The notes under the pieces: model-generated
Told to the model about the DNA's origin: nothing
The model's database searches: none
The model's input: only the letters and a program-made list of their open reading frames with translations
Made by a program: the position numbers and the translations under genes
Shown here: piece by piece, positions 42,219-46,012 of the stretch
Position numbering within the stretch: position 1 is the first letter of the stretch
How the letters are laid out: each line of letters starts with the position of its first letter
NCBI RefSeq assembly: GCF_000023865.1
Contig: NC_013159.1
Span: 3,870,001 to 3,934,000, forward strand
DNA from: Saccharomonospora viridis DSM 43017
Lineage (GTDB): Bacteria; Actinomycetota; Actinomycetes; Mycobacteriales; Pseudonocardiaceae
Direction: 5' to 3'
DNA length: 64,000 nucleotides

Positions 42219-43063
42219 TGGAGCACCCGCCCGGTCATCGACGAGGTCCACGCGACACCGGCCACGAGTAGAGCGGCCCCTACGACGAACAGCACGGAAC
42301 CGACGGAGGTCCCCATGAGCACGGGGATCGGAGCGGCCCCCATGGCCTCGCCGAGGACGAGACCCGCCACGGGGAGGAAGGCCAGCACCGCCGCGCCCGC
42401 TCTCGGACCGGCCAACCGCGCGTCGAGCTGCCGGGCCGACCGGGCCGTGGTTTCCATGTCCCGGTGCACGGCGTCGAAGACATCGGCCAAGGGAATGCCG
42501 TGCCGTGCCGACAACGCCCACGACGTGGCGAGTCGTCCGAATATGCGGTCGACGTGTTCCATTCCCGGCCCGCAGGCGGCTCGGACCTCCGGTTCCGCCG
42601 TGGGTACACCGCTGAACCGCGCCGATGCGGCGAGTCCGCGCAGTCGGTCCGCCAACGGTCGTGGAGCCTCCCTCGCCACGTTCTCGACGGCGGTCACCGG
42701 GTGGGCCCCGGCTCGCAGTTCCGTGACCACTCCCCGAAGCAGCGATGCGAGATCACCGCAGACGGCGACCGTCGTTCGCGCACGTACCCGGGCCCTTCGG
42801 TGCAATACGACCGCCGCCACGAGCAGTCCGCATCCCACCGTGGCACCCATACCGACGGTCAGGACACAACCGACCGTCACGCACACGGCGAAAGCGGTCA
42901 GGAAACGTCGGTGGGGTCCCGTCGACCGTGCCATTTCCCCGTCGTCCGGATGCCCGCTGGGAAACACGGTGGGTCGGAGGAGTCGGGCGAGTCGCTGTCC
43001 CGCGGCGCGCGATGGCCACAGCAGTAAACCGATCGCGGACACCGTCATCGCGGCGATCAGCAC
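42215..43063 (-). CDS. Tad secretion platform protein (TadB-like, T2SSF domain)
   Basis: A 282-residue polytopic protein. Two N-terminal helices (FLTAFAVCVTVGCVLTVGM; TVGCGLLVAAVVLH), a T2SSF domain (LASLLRGVVTELRAGAHPVTAV; HVDRIFGRLATSWALSARHG) and two C-terminal helices. The GTG start lies inside the end of tadA (overlap of 7 bases). It should form the inner-membrane platform with TadC. Confidence 0.87.
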   Translation of the reverse strand: MLIAAMTVSAIGLLLWPSRAAGQRLARLLRPTVFPSGHPDDGEMARSTGPHRRFLTAFAVCVTVGCVLTVGMGATVGCGLLVAAVVLHRRARVRARTTVAVCGDLASLLRGVVTELRAGAHPVTAVENVAREAPRPLADRLRGLAASARFSGVPTAEPEVRAACGPGMEHVDRIFGRLATSWALSARHGIPLADVFDAVHRDMETTARSARQLDARLAGPRAGAAVLAFLPVAGLVLGEAMGAAPIPVLMGTSVGSVLFVVGAALLVAGVAWTSSMTGRVLQ

Positions 43064-44244
43064 GACGCCACCCCGCCGCTTGGTGTTCGGGTGTCCCGTC
43101 GTGAAAGCAGCGCCAAGGTGAGCGGTGAATCGCGGGTCAATCGCTCACCCGGACGCCATGCGGGTTCAACGCTCACAACATCGCCGCGACGACGCACCAG
43201 GCCGATCTCGGCGAGCACCCTGCGCCCCGACGGTTCTCGGCGCATGTGCAGCACGACCTGGACCGCAGCGGCGAGCTGACTGTGCAGTGCCTCCCGGGAG
43301 AGCCCCCCGAGCGCTGCGAGCGCTTCGAGCCGTGCGGGTACTTCGGCGGGTGCGTTGGCGTGCAGCGTGCCCGCACCGCCGTCATGCCCCGTGTTCAACG
43401 CAGTCAACAGTTCCACGACCTCGCGTCCCCGCACCTCTCCGACCACGAGTCGATCAGGCCGCATCCGGAGTGCCTGCCGCACCAGCTCCCGGAGCGTGAC
43501 CTCACCCGCTCCCTCCACGTTGGGTGGGCGCGCCACCAGCCGGACGAACTGGGGATGGTCGGGCTGCAACTCACCGACGTCCTCAACGCAGACCACTCGC
43601 TCGGCGGGATCGACGGCTCCCAAAAGCGCGCCCAGCAGCGTGCTCTTACCGGACCCCGTCGCCCCGGACACGAGGAACGCCAACCGTGCCTTCACGAGGG
43701 CTTCGAGCAGTGCCAAACCGGCGTCGTCCACCGTGCCGAGCCGACGCAGGGAACGCAGGTCGTGCGTGGCGGGACGCAATACGCGTAGAGACAGGCATGT
43801 GCCGTCGGCCGAGATCGGCGGTAGTACGGCATGCAGCCGAATACGCCCTCCCGGTCCGCTGCCCGGCAACCATCCGTCCACGAAAGGCTGTGCGTCATCG
43901 AGTCGCCGTCCCGCGGCGAGCGCCAACCGCTGGGCGAGTCTGCGCACGGCGTCCTCGCCCTCGAACCGGACATCGGTCCGGTGAAGACCGTCGGGCCCGT
44001 CCACCCATACCTCGTCCGGCCCCGTGACGAGGATGTCGGTGATCTCGGGAGTCGCCAGGAGCTTCTCCAACGGCCCCACCCCGGCCAGTTCGTCGTCCAA
44101 CAGCTTCAACGCGGCGAGCACGTCGAGATGGCCCGCGACGCCACCCGCTTCGGCGCGCACCGCATCGGCCACCGCCCGTGGGTCCGTGGCGGCGTCCGTA
44201 CCGGCGAGTCTGGCCCTGACCCGATCGACGAGATCGGCACTCAT
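43057..44244 (-). CDS. Tad pilus assembly ATPase (TadA/CpaF)
   Basis: A 395-residue secretion ATPase. The N-terminal domain contains ITDILVTGPDEVWVDGPDGL. Walker A is SGATGSGKSTLL, the Asp box CVEDVGELQPDHPQFV, Walker B-like RPDRLVVGEVRGREVVELL and the His box TGHDGGAGTLHAN. It powers pilin polymerisation. ATG at 44244 has AGGGGGAGAG upstream. Mycobacterial counterpart: Rv3659c. Confidence 0.93.
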   Translation of the reverse strand: MSADLVDRVRARLAGTDAATDPRAVADAVRAEAGGVAGHLDVLAALKLLDDELAGVGPLEKLLATPEITDILVTGPDEVWVDGPDGLHRTDVRFEGEDAVRRLAQRLALAAGRRLDDAQPFVDGWLPGSGPGGRIRLHAVLPPISADGTCLSLRVLRPATHDLRSLRRLGTVDDAGLALLEALVKARLAFLVSGATGSGKSTLLGALLGAVDPAERVVCVEDVGELQPDHPQFVRLVARPPNVEGAGEVTLRELVRQALRMRPDRLVVGEVRGREVVELLTALNTGHDGGAGTLHANAPAEVPARLEALAALGGLSREALHSQLAAAVQVVLHMRREPSGRRVLAEIGLVRRRGDVVSVEPAWRPGERLTRDSPLTLALLSRRDTRTPSGGVASC

Positions 44245-44486
44245 CTCTCCCCCTCTTCGTTCTCCCGGCCTGTAACGGCCGCTCGTCGTGGCCCCGCTCC
44301 CCCGTCTCCGCCCGCCGATTCCACGACCTCGAAAACTAAGTCCCTTGTAGACAATCAGGTCGTCGAACGCCTCGACGTAGCAGCGAAGCGGAAACCACAC
44401 AGGTGCCTTCTGTGCACCATCAGTTCGATTACCCGATCCAGTTCAGACCACAGTGGACTCACAAGGACCGGTCCGATGGCACGTTC

Positions 44487-45581
44487 CTAGGATTCGGCGA
44501 GTACCGACAAAACGGTTCCGGAGACCTTGCCGATTCGCCTACCGGGGTCGAACCTCCCGCGGTCCATGGCCCGAACCATGGACCGCTCGTCCCGTAGCCA
44601 GCCGAGCACGGGCGCCCCCACGGCCTCGACCACATCGGCCTCGCTGAGGCTGGTCGCCGCGGAGGCCCTGACCACCACGGCGATCCGGGCGATGCGCTCG
44701 GACAGTCGATGACGCACCCGCGCGGCCGACACGCAGCCCCGGACATCGGCGGGCACCACCAGCACGGCGAGATCGGCGCGTCGCAGCACCTCGTCGGCAG
44801 CCGGACTCGGATGTCGGGGCACATCGCACACCACCGTCCGACCCGCTCTACGCCCGGCGTCGACGACGGCGGCCAACGCAGCCTCCGTCGGACCCGGCCC
44901 CGTCCGGTCACAGGACAGGATCGACATTCGACCCCGTCCTCGTCGCCGGAACGGAAGGACGGCGTCCAACTCAGCCATCGACACCCTTCCCGAGGACACC
45001 CGCACATCGGACCAGCGCAGCCCCTCGTCCGCCTCGGCGCCCAACACCAGATCCAAACCCCCACCGAGCGGATCGCAGTCCACCAACAGCGCCGCCCCAC
45101 CGGAACGCGCCGCGGCCAGCCCCACGCTCGCCGCCAGCACCGACGCTCCCGCCCCTCCCCGGCCACCGATCACCGCGAGCACTCGCCCCTCACGGTCACT
45201 CGGTTTCTCGGCGACATCGGCGAGCGCGGTGACGACGACGTCCTCATCTGCGGGAAGGACGGCCACACCGTCCACCCCCAGCGCGACGGCCGCCTTCCAC
45301 TGCTCCGGAGTGGGGGTGTCCGTACGCACCAGCAACACCCCGGACCTGCGCGGGACGTCGATCACGTCGGGGACGTGATCGATCAGCACCAATGGCGCGT
45401 CCGACCAACGCGGACGTGCTGCCGCGGAATCGGTGACGTGGTGGAGTTCGCACCCCACGGCCGCGGCGAGTCGAACGACGTGTTCGCGGACGGTGTCGTC
45501 GGTCATGAGCGCGAGCGGTCGCTCGTCGACGTCGGAGACCGCCGCCACCGCCGTCGCCGCTGTGGCCTCCGTCCCGATCAT
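44487..45581 (-). CDS. ssd: Septum-site-determining protein Ssd / CpaE-like MinD relative
   Basis: A 364-residue P-loop protein at the head of the Tad block, as Rv3660c is in M. tuberculosis. The deviant Walker motif reads VIGGRGGAGASVLA: both lysines of the MinD/ParA signature are missing, as expected for the Ssd group. LLVDCDPLGGGLDLVLG is the A' motif region. VVCDVPRHPSPAADEVLRRAD corresponds to Walker B. Rv3660c affects septation and dormancy-type growth when overexpressed (literature knowledge); CpaE relatives localise Tad pili. The gene is separated from tadA by 242 bases. Confidence 0.88.
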   Translation of the reverse strand: MIGTEATAATAVAAVSDVDERPLALMTDDTVREHVVRLAAAVGCELHHVTDSAAARPRWSDAPLVLIDHVPDVIDVPRRSGVLLVRTDTPTPEQWKAAVALGVDGVAVLPADEDVVVTALADVAEKPSDREGRVLAVIGGRGGAGASVLAASVGLAAARSGGAALLVDCDPLGGGLDLVLGAEADEGLRWSDVRVSSGRVSMAELDAVLPFRRRGRGRMSILSCDRTGPGPTEAALAAVVDAGRRAGRTVVCDVPRHPSPAADEVLRRADLAVLVVPADVRGCVSAARVRHRLSERIARIAVVVRASAATSLSEADVVEAVGAPVLGWLRDERSMVRAMDRGRFDPGRRIGKVSGTVLSVLAES

Positions 45582-45701
45582 CGCCGCATCATCGCTTCAT
45601 CACAGCCTCCCCCAGTCGTCCGCGGCCCTCCGCGGTCGTTCGCGTTCCGACACCACGGTCACGCGAATCGGTACGGCACACCAACCCGTGCCCGGACGAG
45701 C

Positions 45702-45761
45702 TGTGGATAACCGGGGCCCTGTGGATAACCCTGTGGACAACTGTGGACAACCCGGGGATAA
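45702..45761. promoter_or_regulatory. DnaA-box cluster
   Basis: Four matches to the actinobacterial DnaA box TT(A/G)TCCACA occur on the minus strand, seen on the plus strand as TGTGGATAA at 45702 and 45720 and TGTGGACAA at 45732 and 45742. A weaker copy (CGGGGATAA) follows at 45753. All share one orientation with 18, 12, 10 and 11 base steps. No dnaA or dnaN gene is near, so this is not an ordinary oriC. It directly follows the 6C RNA 3' end. Confidence 0.8.
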
Positions 45762-45848
45762 GAGAGGCGGCCCTCGCCAGGGGGAGGAGCGAGGGCCGCC
45801 GAACTTCAGTCCCGGGGGGCGGACTGAACGCGTCCGGTCATACCGGAC
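45758..45848 (-). ncRNA. 6C small RNA (B11-like)
   Basis: On the minus strand two stem-loops have C-rich loops, the mark of the 6C RNA family. Stem 1: TTCAGTCC, loop GCCCCCCG, GGACTGAA (45828-45805). Stem 2: GGCGGCCCTCGC, loop TCCTCCCCCTG, GCGAGGGCCGCC (45800-45766), followed by TCTCTTATCC as a weak terminator tail. The place, just upstream of ssd, matches the M. tuberculosis 6C RNA B11 beside Rv3660c. The 5' end is estimated from a TACAGT -10-like box (45860-45855) and may include a third small hairpin (45832-45848). Confidence 0.82.
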
Positions 45849-46012
45849 AACTCCACTGTAACCCGCTGGACAGTGTTTGCGGTCCCACCAAACGACGAGC
45901 GGCCCACCACAATCGGTCAATGTCCGGTCGGTGTCCGGACAGCGGCGCACCGCCATCGCGTCAGCGGGTTCCCATGGCCCACCGCTCACGCCGGTTCCCA
46001 TATCGTGTTGTC

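Follow-up and report, generated by a model that had tools for sequence, protein, structure and literature searches.

Tandem TTRTCCACA boxes between the 6C RNA and ssd of Saccharomonospora viridis: a probable operator of an actinobacterial competence regulon

Introduction

Why should four copies of a 9-mer matching the DnaA box, all in the same orientation, lie between a small RNA and a gene named for septum-site determination? The question is raised by the genome of Saccharomonospora viridis DSM 43017, in a stretch of 64,000 nucleotides (contig NC_013159.1, positions 3,870,001 to 3,934,000; here called the window, with coordinates counted from its first letter). Window positions 45702–45848 contain the boxes together with a 6C RNA, from about the predicted start of that RNA, and the gene ssd lies beyond them. 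A sequence-only reading of this span had proposed a locus that joins replication initiation by DnaA to 6C and to septation. The comparative analysis reported here points elsewhere: the boxes are probably the operator of the ssd-tad promoter, itself a predicted member of an actinobacterial competence (DNA-uptake) regulon. The conserved core of this operator consists of two TTRTCCACA boxes in direct repeat, 18–19 bp apart.

The Locus

The features between 6C and ssd, in the direction of transcription, are as follows.

45855..45860, minus strand: putative −10 hexamer (TACAGT) of the 6C promoter, read from the sequence
45762..45832, minus strand: 6C RNA (RF01066), a transcription unit of its own upstream of the boxes; cmscan E-value 2.8e-5
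45742..45750, minus strand: box 1, TTGTCCACA, an extra box, exact match to TTRTCCACA; box 2 starts 10 bp on
45732..45740, minus strand: box 2, TTGTCCACA, an extra box, exact match; the next box starts 12 bp on
45720..45728, minus strand: box 3, TTATCCACA, exact match, upstream half of the 18-bp tandem operator; the spacing of 18 or 19 bp is conserved
45702..45710, minus strand: box 4, TTATCCACA, exact match, downstream half of the tandem operator
44487..45581, minus strand: ssd (CpaE/TadZ-like), TIGR03815 at 302.4 bits against a cut-off of 154.45

The sequence-only reading was right about both components of the span. The covariance model identifies the RNA as 6C, at 55.6 bits against a gathering cut-off of 47, and the four boxes are exact 9-mers, the first of them 11 nt past the end of the 6C model and all on the same strand as 6C and ssd. 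Dinucleotide shuffling of the 180-nt interval (5000 shuffles) gave a mean of 0.0012 exact boxes and a maximum of one. There are 71 TTRTCCACA sites in the whole genome (31 for a reversed-pattern control), and the site list gives the 6C-ssd interval as the sole place with four of them inside 50 bp. Boxes 3 and 4 correspond to positions 3915702–3915728 of the host genome (G000), and an extra box 12 bp before an 18-bp pair recurs in two other genomes, exactly in G062 and with one mismatch in G090. A member of the 6C family would be a small transcript of about 90–100 nt, and both a 3′ hairpin and a −10-like hexamer are present here; hexamers resembling TACAGT were seen by eye 5′ of 6C in many relatives, and the −10 hexamer TATAGT is reported for the mycobacterial B11 (PMC12395582).

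Boxes Accompany ssd and Not 6C

Within the host family, 128 of 150 genomes gave a 6C match, and 91 of these loci were analysed (the 30 best-scoring, 60 chosen for spread and the window locus). The 300 nt 3′ of 6C contain 120 exact boxes in the forward orientation and one in reverse, with at least one box in 73 of the 91 loci; the region 100–400 nt 5′ of 6C has none on either strand in these loci, and their far flanks have six in 144.8 kb. With L006 and L020, which lack ssd, set aside, one or more exact boxes separate 6C from ssd in 81 of the remaining 89 loci, and 68 show a pair at 18 or 19 bp, allowing each box a single mismatch (shuffle mean, 0.02 loci). Exact boxes number 135 in these 89 intervals, where 100 dinucleotide shuffles averaged 0.12, and the picture is the same with one locus per genus (exact box 35/38, pair 33/38). 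The spacings between exact boxes in the family are mostly 18 bp (28 cases) and 19 bp (17), with a few at 17 (2), 12 (2), 10 (1), 30 (2) and 31 bp (2).

The boxes are placed with respect to ssd. Their distance to its start is narrowly distributed (median 109 nt from the last exact box, interquartile range 96–129), whereas that from the 6C end to the last exact box has a median of 119 nt with an interquartile range of 75–203, and 6C-to-box distances reach 885 nt. About 157 genomes outside the family have 6C, and 70 of their loci, picked for spread over families, were analysed. A forward box (at most one mismatch, within 600 nt) is present in 49 of the 60 loci with ssd, one of which (L162) has ssd on the other side of 6C, and in none of the ten loci where ssd was not found alongside; these ten come from five families (f8, one; f9, two; f13, one; f15, five; f51, one) and so do not count as ten separate cases. 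A reverse box is seen at 2 of the 60 loci and 1 of the 10. Of the 26 other families represented by ssd loci, 21 include at least one locus with a box.

The check named by the sequence-only reading, a search for boxes in the same interval of relatives, thus turned out positive, as did the covariance model; a functional tie between boxes and 6C found no support. In the host genus the first box lies 5–19 nt past the 6C model end in all seven genomes examined, and this abutment reflects a compact interval, because the boxes keep their distance to ssd and are absent from the ten loci where ssd was not found beside 6C. In this genus 6C, a transcription unit in its own right, happens to terminate shortly before the boxes. 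A single unit made of 6C, DnaA and septation was rejected on account of the parting of the boxes from 6C in the loci compared.

Some further observations concern 6C and box clusters in the family. No 6C match was obtained in 6 of its 46 genera (g3, g4, g28, g36, g39 and g42; for example G002, G003, G028, G036, G039 and G042), and one genome of this group, G036, still has a box cluster 5′ of ssd. A triple-box pattern, real and not decisive, is present in 29 of the 150 genomes. Most of these clusters lie elsewhere than ssd, since tblastn finds ssd at only three of the triple-box loci L031–L060 (L053, L054 and L058).

The Same Pair at Uptake and Pilus Genes

The same pair stands 5′ of comEA, yraN-comM, cpaB-like, tadA, recA and SSB genes. 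An exact pair at 18 or 19 bp was found in 123 of the 150 family genomes, and the control gave none in all 150. Among three genomes of the host genus (G000, G062 and G111), a search with 18-bp spacing and at most one mismatch returned 13 matches, all 13 at Tad-pilus or competence genes (yraN 3, comEA 3, cpaB-like 3, ssd 2, tadA 2), and none with the reversed pattern. Six genomes with few pairs (G000, G059, G021, G099, G043 and G023) have 15 places in total, all of which were identified; nine precede uptake, pilus or single-strand-DNA genes, namely ssd (3, those of G059 and G021 assigned by their position 3′ of 6C), SSB (2), cpaB-like (2), comEA (1) and yraN-comM (1). Searches that started from the gene gave a pair with a score of at most 2 upstream of comEA in 24 of 30 genomes and upstream of yraN in 23 of 30, and on the reverse strand in none of the 30 for either gene.

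A wider scan covered one genome for each of 84,980 species, with the pair followed by TAVCGTCG, a pattern that holds no gene information. At least 120 stretches matched, 80 of which were listed. Among the matches listed, all from records titled as actinobacteria, 76 of 80 lie at cpaB-like (39), comEA (31) or recA (6) genes, the downstream gene being picked by an open reading frame (ORF) heuristic and named by our own hidden Markov models, NCBIfam or Pfam; the other four (L342, L361, L391 and L415) have no gene assignment. L347 is weakly cpaB-like (RcpC, 21 bits, below the cut-off), and at L398 the ORF picked is comEC while the nearer frame is comEA.

Promoter Layout

The pair also keeps a set distance to a promoter-like element, found at ssd as follows.

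45655..45660, minus strand: −10-like hexamer GACCGT of the ssd promoter, at offset 41 from the last box

Among 131 promoters, pre-filtered for the presence of the pair, a hexamer of the class [TCG]A[AGC][CG]GT (xAxSGT) begins 39–41 nt past the second box in 85 (ssd 53/84, comEA 19/24, yraN 13/23), and all other offsets from 0 to 69 combined yield 21 occurrences. The distance from pair to hexamer is thus shared by ssd, comEA and yraN, as the pair's sequence, strand, spacing and gene set are shared. Transcription of ssd would start near 45648, which would put box 4 at about −54 to −62 and box 3 at about −72 to −80. At many comEA loci, the predicted start codon comes 4–5 nt past the −10-like string, which suggests that the messages may be leaderless there.

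A Probable Competence Regulon

These observations can be assembled into a mechanism. The two boxes nearest ssd (45728–45702) would form a tandem TTRTCCACA site marking the promoters of a competence regulon that would comprise ssd/tadZ, tadA, cpaB-like genes, comEA(-comEC) and yraN-comM, with the SSB gene, recA, DUF4192 and other little-known genes added in some genera. One protein may occupy both half-sites, about 54–80 bp 5′ of the transcription start, and activate a weak promoter with a −10-like hexamer and no evident −35; activation, and not repression, is suggested by the position of the operator upstream of the promoter. The genes bearing the pair would then be expressed together as competence genes. 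Tad genes are needed for transformation in Micrococcus luteus, nearly so in the case of tadB, and many actinobacteria have tad along with comEA/comEC (PMC4322843). The boxes are therefore best explained by a competence regulon in which the tandem operator lies upstream of weak promoters. Tentatively, this can be extended to a model in which DnaA, or a dedicated reader of the 18–19 bp tandem, would activate natural competence across the class Actinomycetes, firing the Tad-pilus, ComEA/ComEC, YraN-ComM, SSB and RecA genes jointly and thereby tying DNA uptake to the machinery of replication. Ssd, a septum inhibitor when overexpressed, would then belong to the uptake state and might hold up division while it lasts. 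Among the leading titles listed by searches of Creative Commons-licensed papers, none deals with the tandem operator or with DnaA at ssd; the last of these searches covered 2026 only and carries little weight for the 9-mer in older papers.

Several points weigh against this reading. Of the 15 places in the six low-pair genomes, six precede DUF4192 (3), DUF559 (1) or an unnamed short gene (2). The genus search was confined to 18-bp spacing, leaving outside it the 19-bp pairs of G062 (one) and G111 (two), counted by difference, and that of G000, which precedes a DUF559 gene. No good pair was found at 6 of 30 comEA and 7 of 30 yraN loci, and outside the family a box is missing from 11 of 60 ssd loci, the pair being present at no more than 21 of them. 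The hexamer class was picked after comEA and cpaB-like promoters had been viewed; the −10 string of the wide scan was derived from the same two kinds of promoter, so their share of its matches is not an unbiased census. Among the scan matches listed, Amycolatopsis accounts for 30 of 80 (other genera, 50). The cpaB-like matches to NCBI's models score below the cut-off. Pairs are far more numerous in some genomes (103 in G115 and 101 in G001), and 14 of the 19 G115 places fetched precede short repeated elements and not recognised genes. M. luteus, moreover, has no TadZ (PMC4322843).

The repeats of G115 fall into two types, one beginning GGCAAGGCGGGACGCCCCCGGGA (eight places: L314, L317, L319, L320, L322, L324, L329 and L332) and a second with six places (L318, L321, L323, L328, L330 and L331). 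They look like multicopy small RNAs, or repeats, that may be wired to the same promoter, and the abundance of pairs before them suggests that some genera put the operator to another use or carry the repeat along with it. The remaining G115 places fetched include recA and DUF4192.

Other genes bearing the pair can be listed beside these. DUF4192 genes (PF13830) with the tandem operator, candidate competence genes, occur at L229, L232, L236 and L326; the DUF559 gene of the host genome (L221) is supported by Pfam; and recA has the operator in several genera (L325 in G115, L344, L372, L381, L396, L401 and L420). For three short pair-bearing genes of other genera (L227, L230 and L327), Pfam gives no match.

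Which Protein Binds, and Alternative Readings

It is possible, if on the doubtful side, that DnaA itself occupies the tandem boxes and sets the uptake regulon according to the state of replication or to replication stress, a proposal compatible with the competence regulon. The 9-mer TTRTCCACA, including G or A at its third position, is the DnaA consensus, and the four window boxes match it exactly. In 25 genomes searched for DnaA_C, one match was obtained per genome; no DnaA paralog was thus found there, and a paralog was rejected as the regulator. The 10- and 12-bp spacings of the extra boxes in the window are also found 5′ of dnaN (11 and 18 of 143 spacings), and the host genome has clusters of the same 9-mer at two other places.

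L225, host genome 4268500–4271500: five TTATCCACA boxes, all but one on the same strand, 5′ of dnaB
L223, host genome 24000–26500: two boxes 12 bp apart, where a PH-domain gene meets crgA

These two are presumably counterparts of two of the five mycobacterial DnaA-bound regions, L223 probably that of the Rv0010c-Rv0011c site of Mycobacterium tuberculosis. The main text of the mycobacterial DnaA maps, which gives the five bound regions, does not name Rv3660c-Rv3661/ssd (PMC7738170), where the boxes are degenerate in mycobacteria-like genomes. The conserved spacing of the pair, unlike those of the extra boxes, speaks against DnaA. In 30 genomes, 143 same-strand spacings of up to 45 bp were collected from a stretch of 1500 nt 5′ of dnaN, which for some genomes covers part of the dnaA-dnaN interval only; they peak at 10–12, 20, 32 and 43 bp and include none of 17–19 bp; E. 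coli DnaA favours boxes 2–3 bp apart (PMC11317965). One-mismatch variants are shared between regulon boxes and the oriC region of the same genome at chance level (10 observed, 9.4 expected, p 0.47), an absence of signal that is neutral on DnaA. The replication control by DnaA originally proposed is weakly supported, the 18–19 bp spacing being missing 5′ of dnaN and the site unnamed in the main text of the mycobacterial maps.

Less probable, and in our view unlikely, is that the pair marks a DNA-damage regulon and not a competence regulon. The recA and SSB genes do carry the pair in some genera; comEA, yraN-comM, cpaB-like genes, tadA and ssd are not known as classical damage genes. The PafBC/RecA-NDp promoter has the form TTGTCRGTG-N8-TANNNT, and several G115 promoters, that of recA (L325) among them, show by eye a similar core, like TTGTCGGTG-N8-TANNNT. 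A PafBC-like core is, however, not evident by eye in the comEA and ssd promoters viewed, nor is one visible by eye upstream of the −10-like hexamer in the window. In Corynebacterium glutamicum, mitomycin C raises 6C itself roughly two-fold (PMC6789036), a further point for this reading.

Still less likely is a DnaA-titration or datA/D78-like replication-control locus near oriC, as might be suspected from the location of 6C/ssd at 274–582 kb from dnaN in 29 of 30 genomes (806 kb in one); this proximity to the origin may be mere synteny and is not decisive. Against a titration site stand the restriction of the boxes to one strand, their set distance to a −10-like hexamer and the recurrence of the pair at genes well away from oriC, for instance at the comEA gene of the host genome (at 1.3 Mb). 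Most improbable of all is a 6C-linked element controlling 6C or its termination, which would account for the close abutment in all seven genomes of the genus and is contradicted by box distances of up to 885 nt and by the ten boxless loci without ssd, five of them from one family.

Neighbouring Genes and the Setting of ssd

The genes around the operator other than ssd are the following.

43057..44400, minus strand: tadA, pilus ATPase, start codon uncertain; TIGR03819 at 488.8 bits against a cut-off of 373.15, and PF00437
42215..43063, minus strand: tadB/C-like membrane protein; PF00482, 40.7 bits
41580..42521, minus strand: tadB/C-like membrane protein, start uncertain, the ORF overlapping its neighbour; PF00482, 50.2 bits
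46013..46855, plus strand: HAD-IB hydrolase, the divergent neighbour; TIGR01490, 207.1 bits

As its TadZ-like first gene, ssd heads a Tad pilus operon. The role in septation invoked by the sequence-only reading goes back to the gene name and to overexpression work (PMC3095998), and the other genes sharing the pair are mostly concerned with DNA uptake, pili and recombination. A second pair is present at the ssd/tadA junction, 5′ of tadA, in two genomes of the host genus (L304 in G111 and L311 in G062). There is no sign that the HAD-IB hydrolase shares the operator, exact boxes being absent from both strands 100–400 nt 5′ of 6C in the 91 loci. A second dnaN-like gene lies about 20–45 kb from 6C/ssd in 9 of 30 genomes (G023, G034, G043, G052, G055, G059, G085, G099 and G142).

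In 42 of 89 loci a GGGGG tract is found no more than 45 nt from the start of ssd, where shuffled sequences gave a mean of 16.5 loci and a maximum of 24. The C-rich loop of B11 pairs with G-tracts near ribosome sites in mycobacteria (PMC12395582). The tract at ssd is a lead, and not evidence, for a possible post-transcriptional control of ssd by 6C, as Shine-Dalgarno sites are G-rich too.

Significance for Natural Competence

It is more than four decades since natural transformation was discovered in actinobacteria (PMC4322843), and for their model M. luteus the signals or cascade that lie upstream of competence had yet to be identified in January 2026 (PMC12849477). A conserved operator with a defined geometry could serve as bait for the regulator, making the cascade searchable, and offers a way to list the regulon across actinobacterial genomes. 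It leads to the prediction that a competence programme is wired into many antibiotic-producing genera (Amycolatopsis, Saccharothrix and Micromonospora among them). DUF4192 and a few families without names become candidates for competence genes, and the setting of ‘ssd’ comes into view.

Comparison With Known Systems

The ComK box of Bacillus subtilis consists of two repeated half-sites at a few set spacings, 5′ of late competence genes. The tandem pair resembles it in its paired half-sites, set spacings and position upstream of competence genes, and differs in the half-site itself. A ComK homolog was not found in M. luteus (PMC4322843). The same work treats tad and comEA/comEC as one uptake machine, the Flp/Tad pilus transformation system of M. 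luteus, as is done here; within its account no shared operator or upstream regulator is described, unlike the tandem pair presented above (PMC4322843). As regards the RNA, in M. tuberculosis the interval between Rv3660 and Rv3661 contains B11 (PMC12395582), and in Streptomyces coelicolor 6C (scr3558) lies beside SCO3558 (PMC8539372). The 6C of the window, with its family match and its intergenic place beside ssd, is an ordinary member of this group, and nothing about the RNA itself is new.

DnaA boxes at oriC and at DnaA-regulated promoters have the same 9-mer, TTRTCCACA, and form clusters in the host genome 5′ of dnaN, 5′ of dnaB and at crgA. Unlike the boxes of the dnaN region, where the 17–19 bp class is empty, the tandem operator is an 18–19 bp direct repeat with a set position before a −10-like hexamer. 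D78 is a DnaA-box cluster of S. coelicolor. The S. coelicolor clusters and datA of E. coli likewise combine several good boxes at no more than a few hundred kb from oriC; unlike them, the tandem operator is a directional promoter element common to a set of genes.
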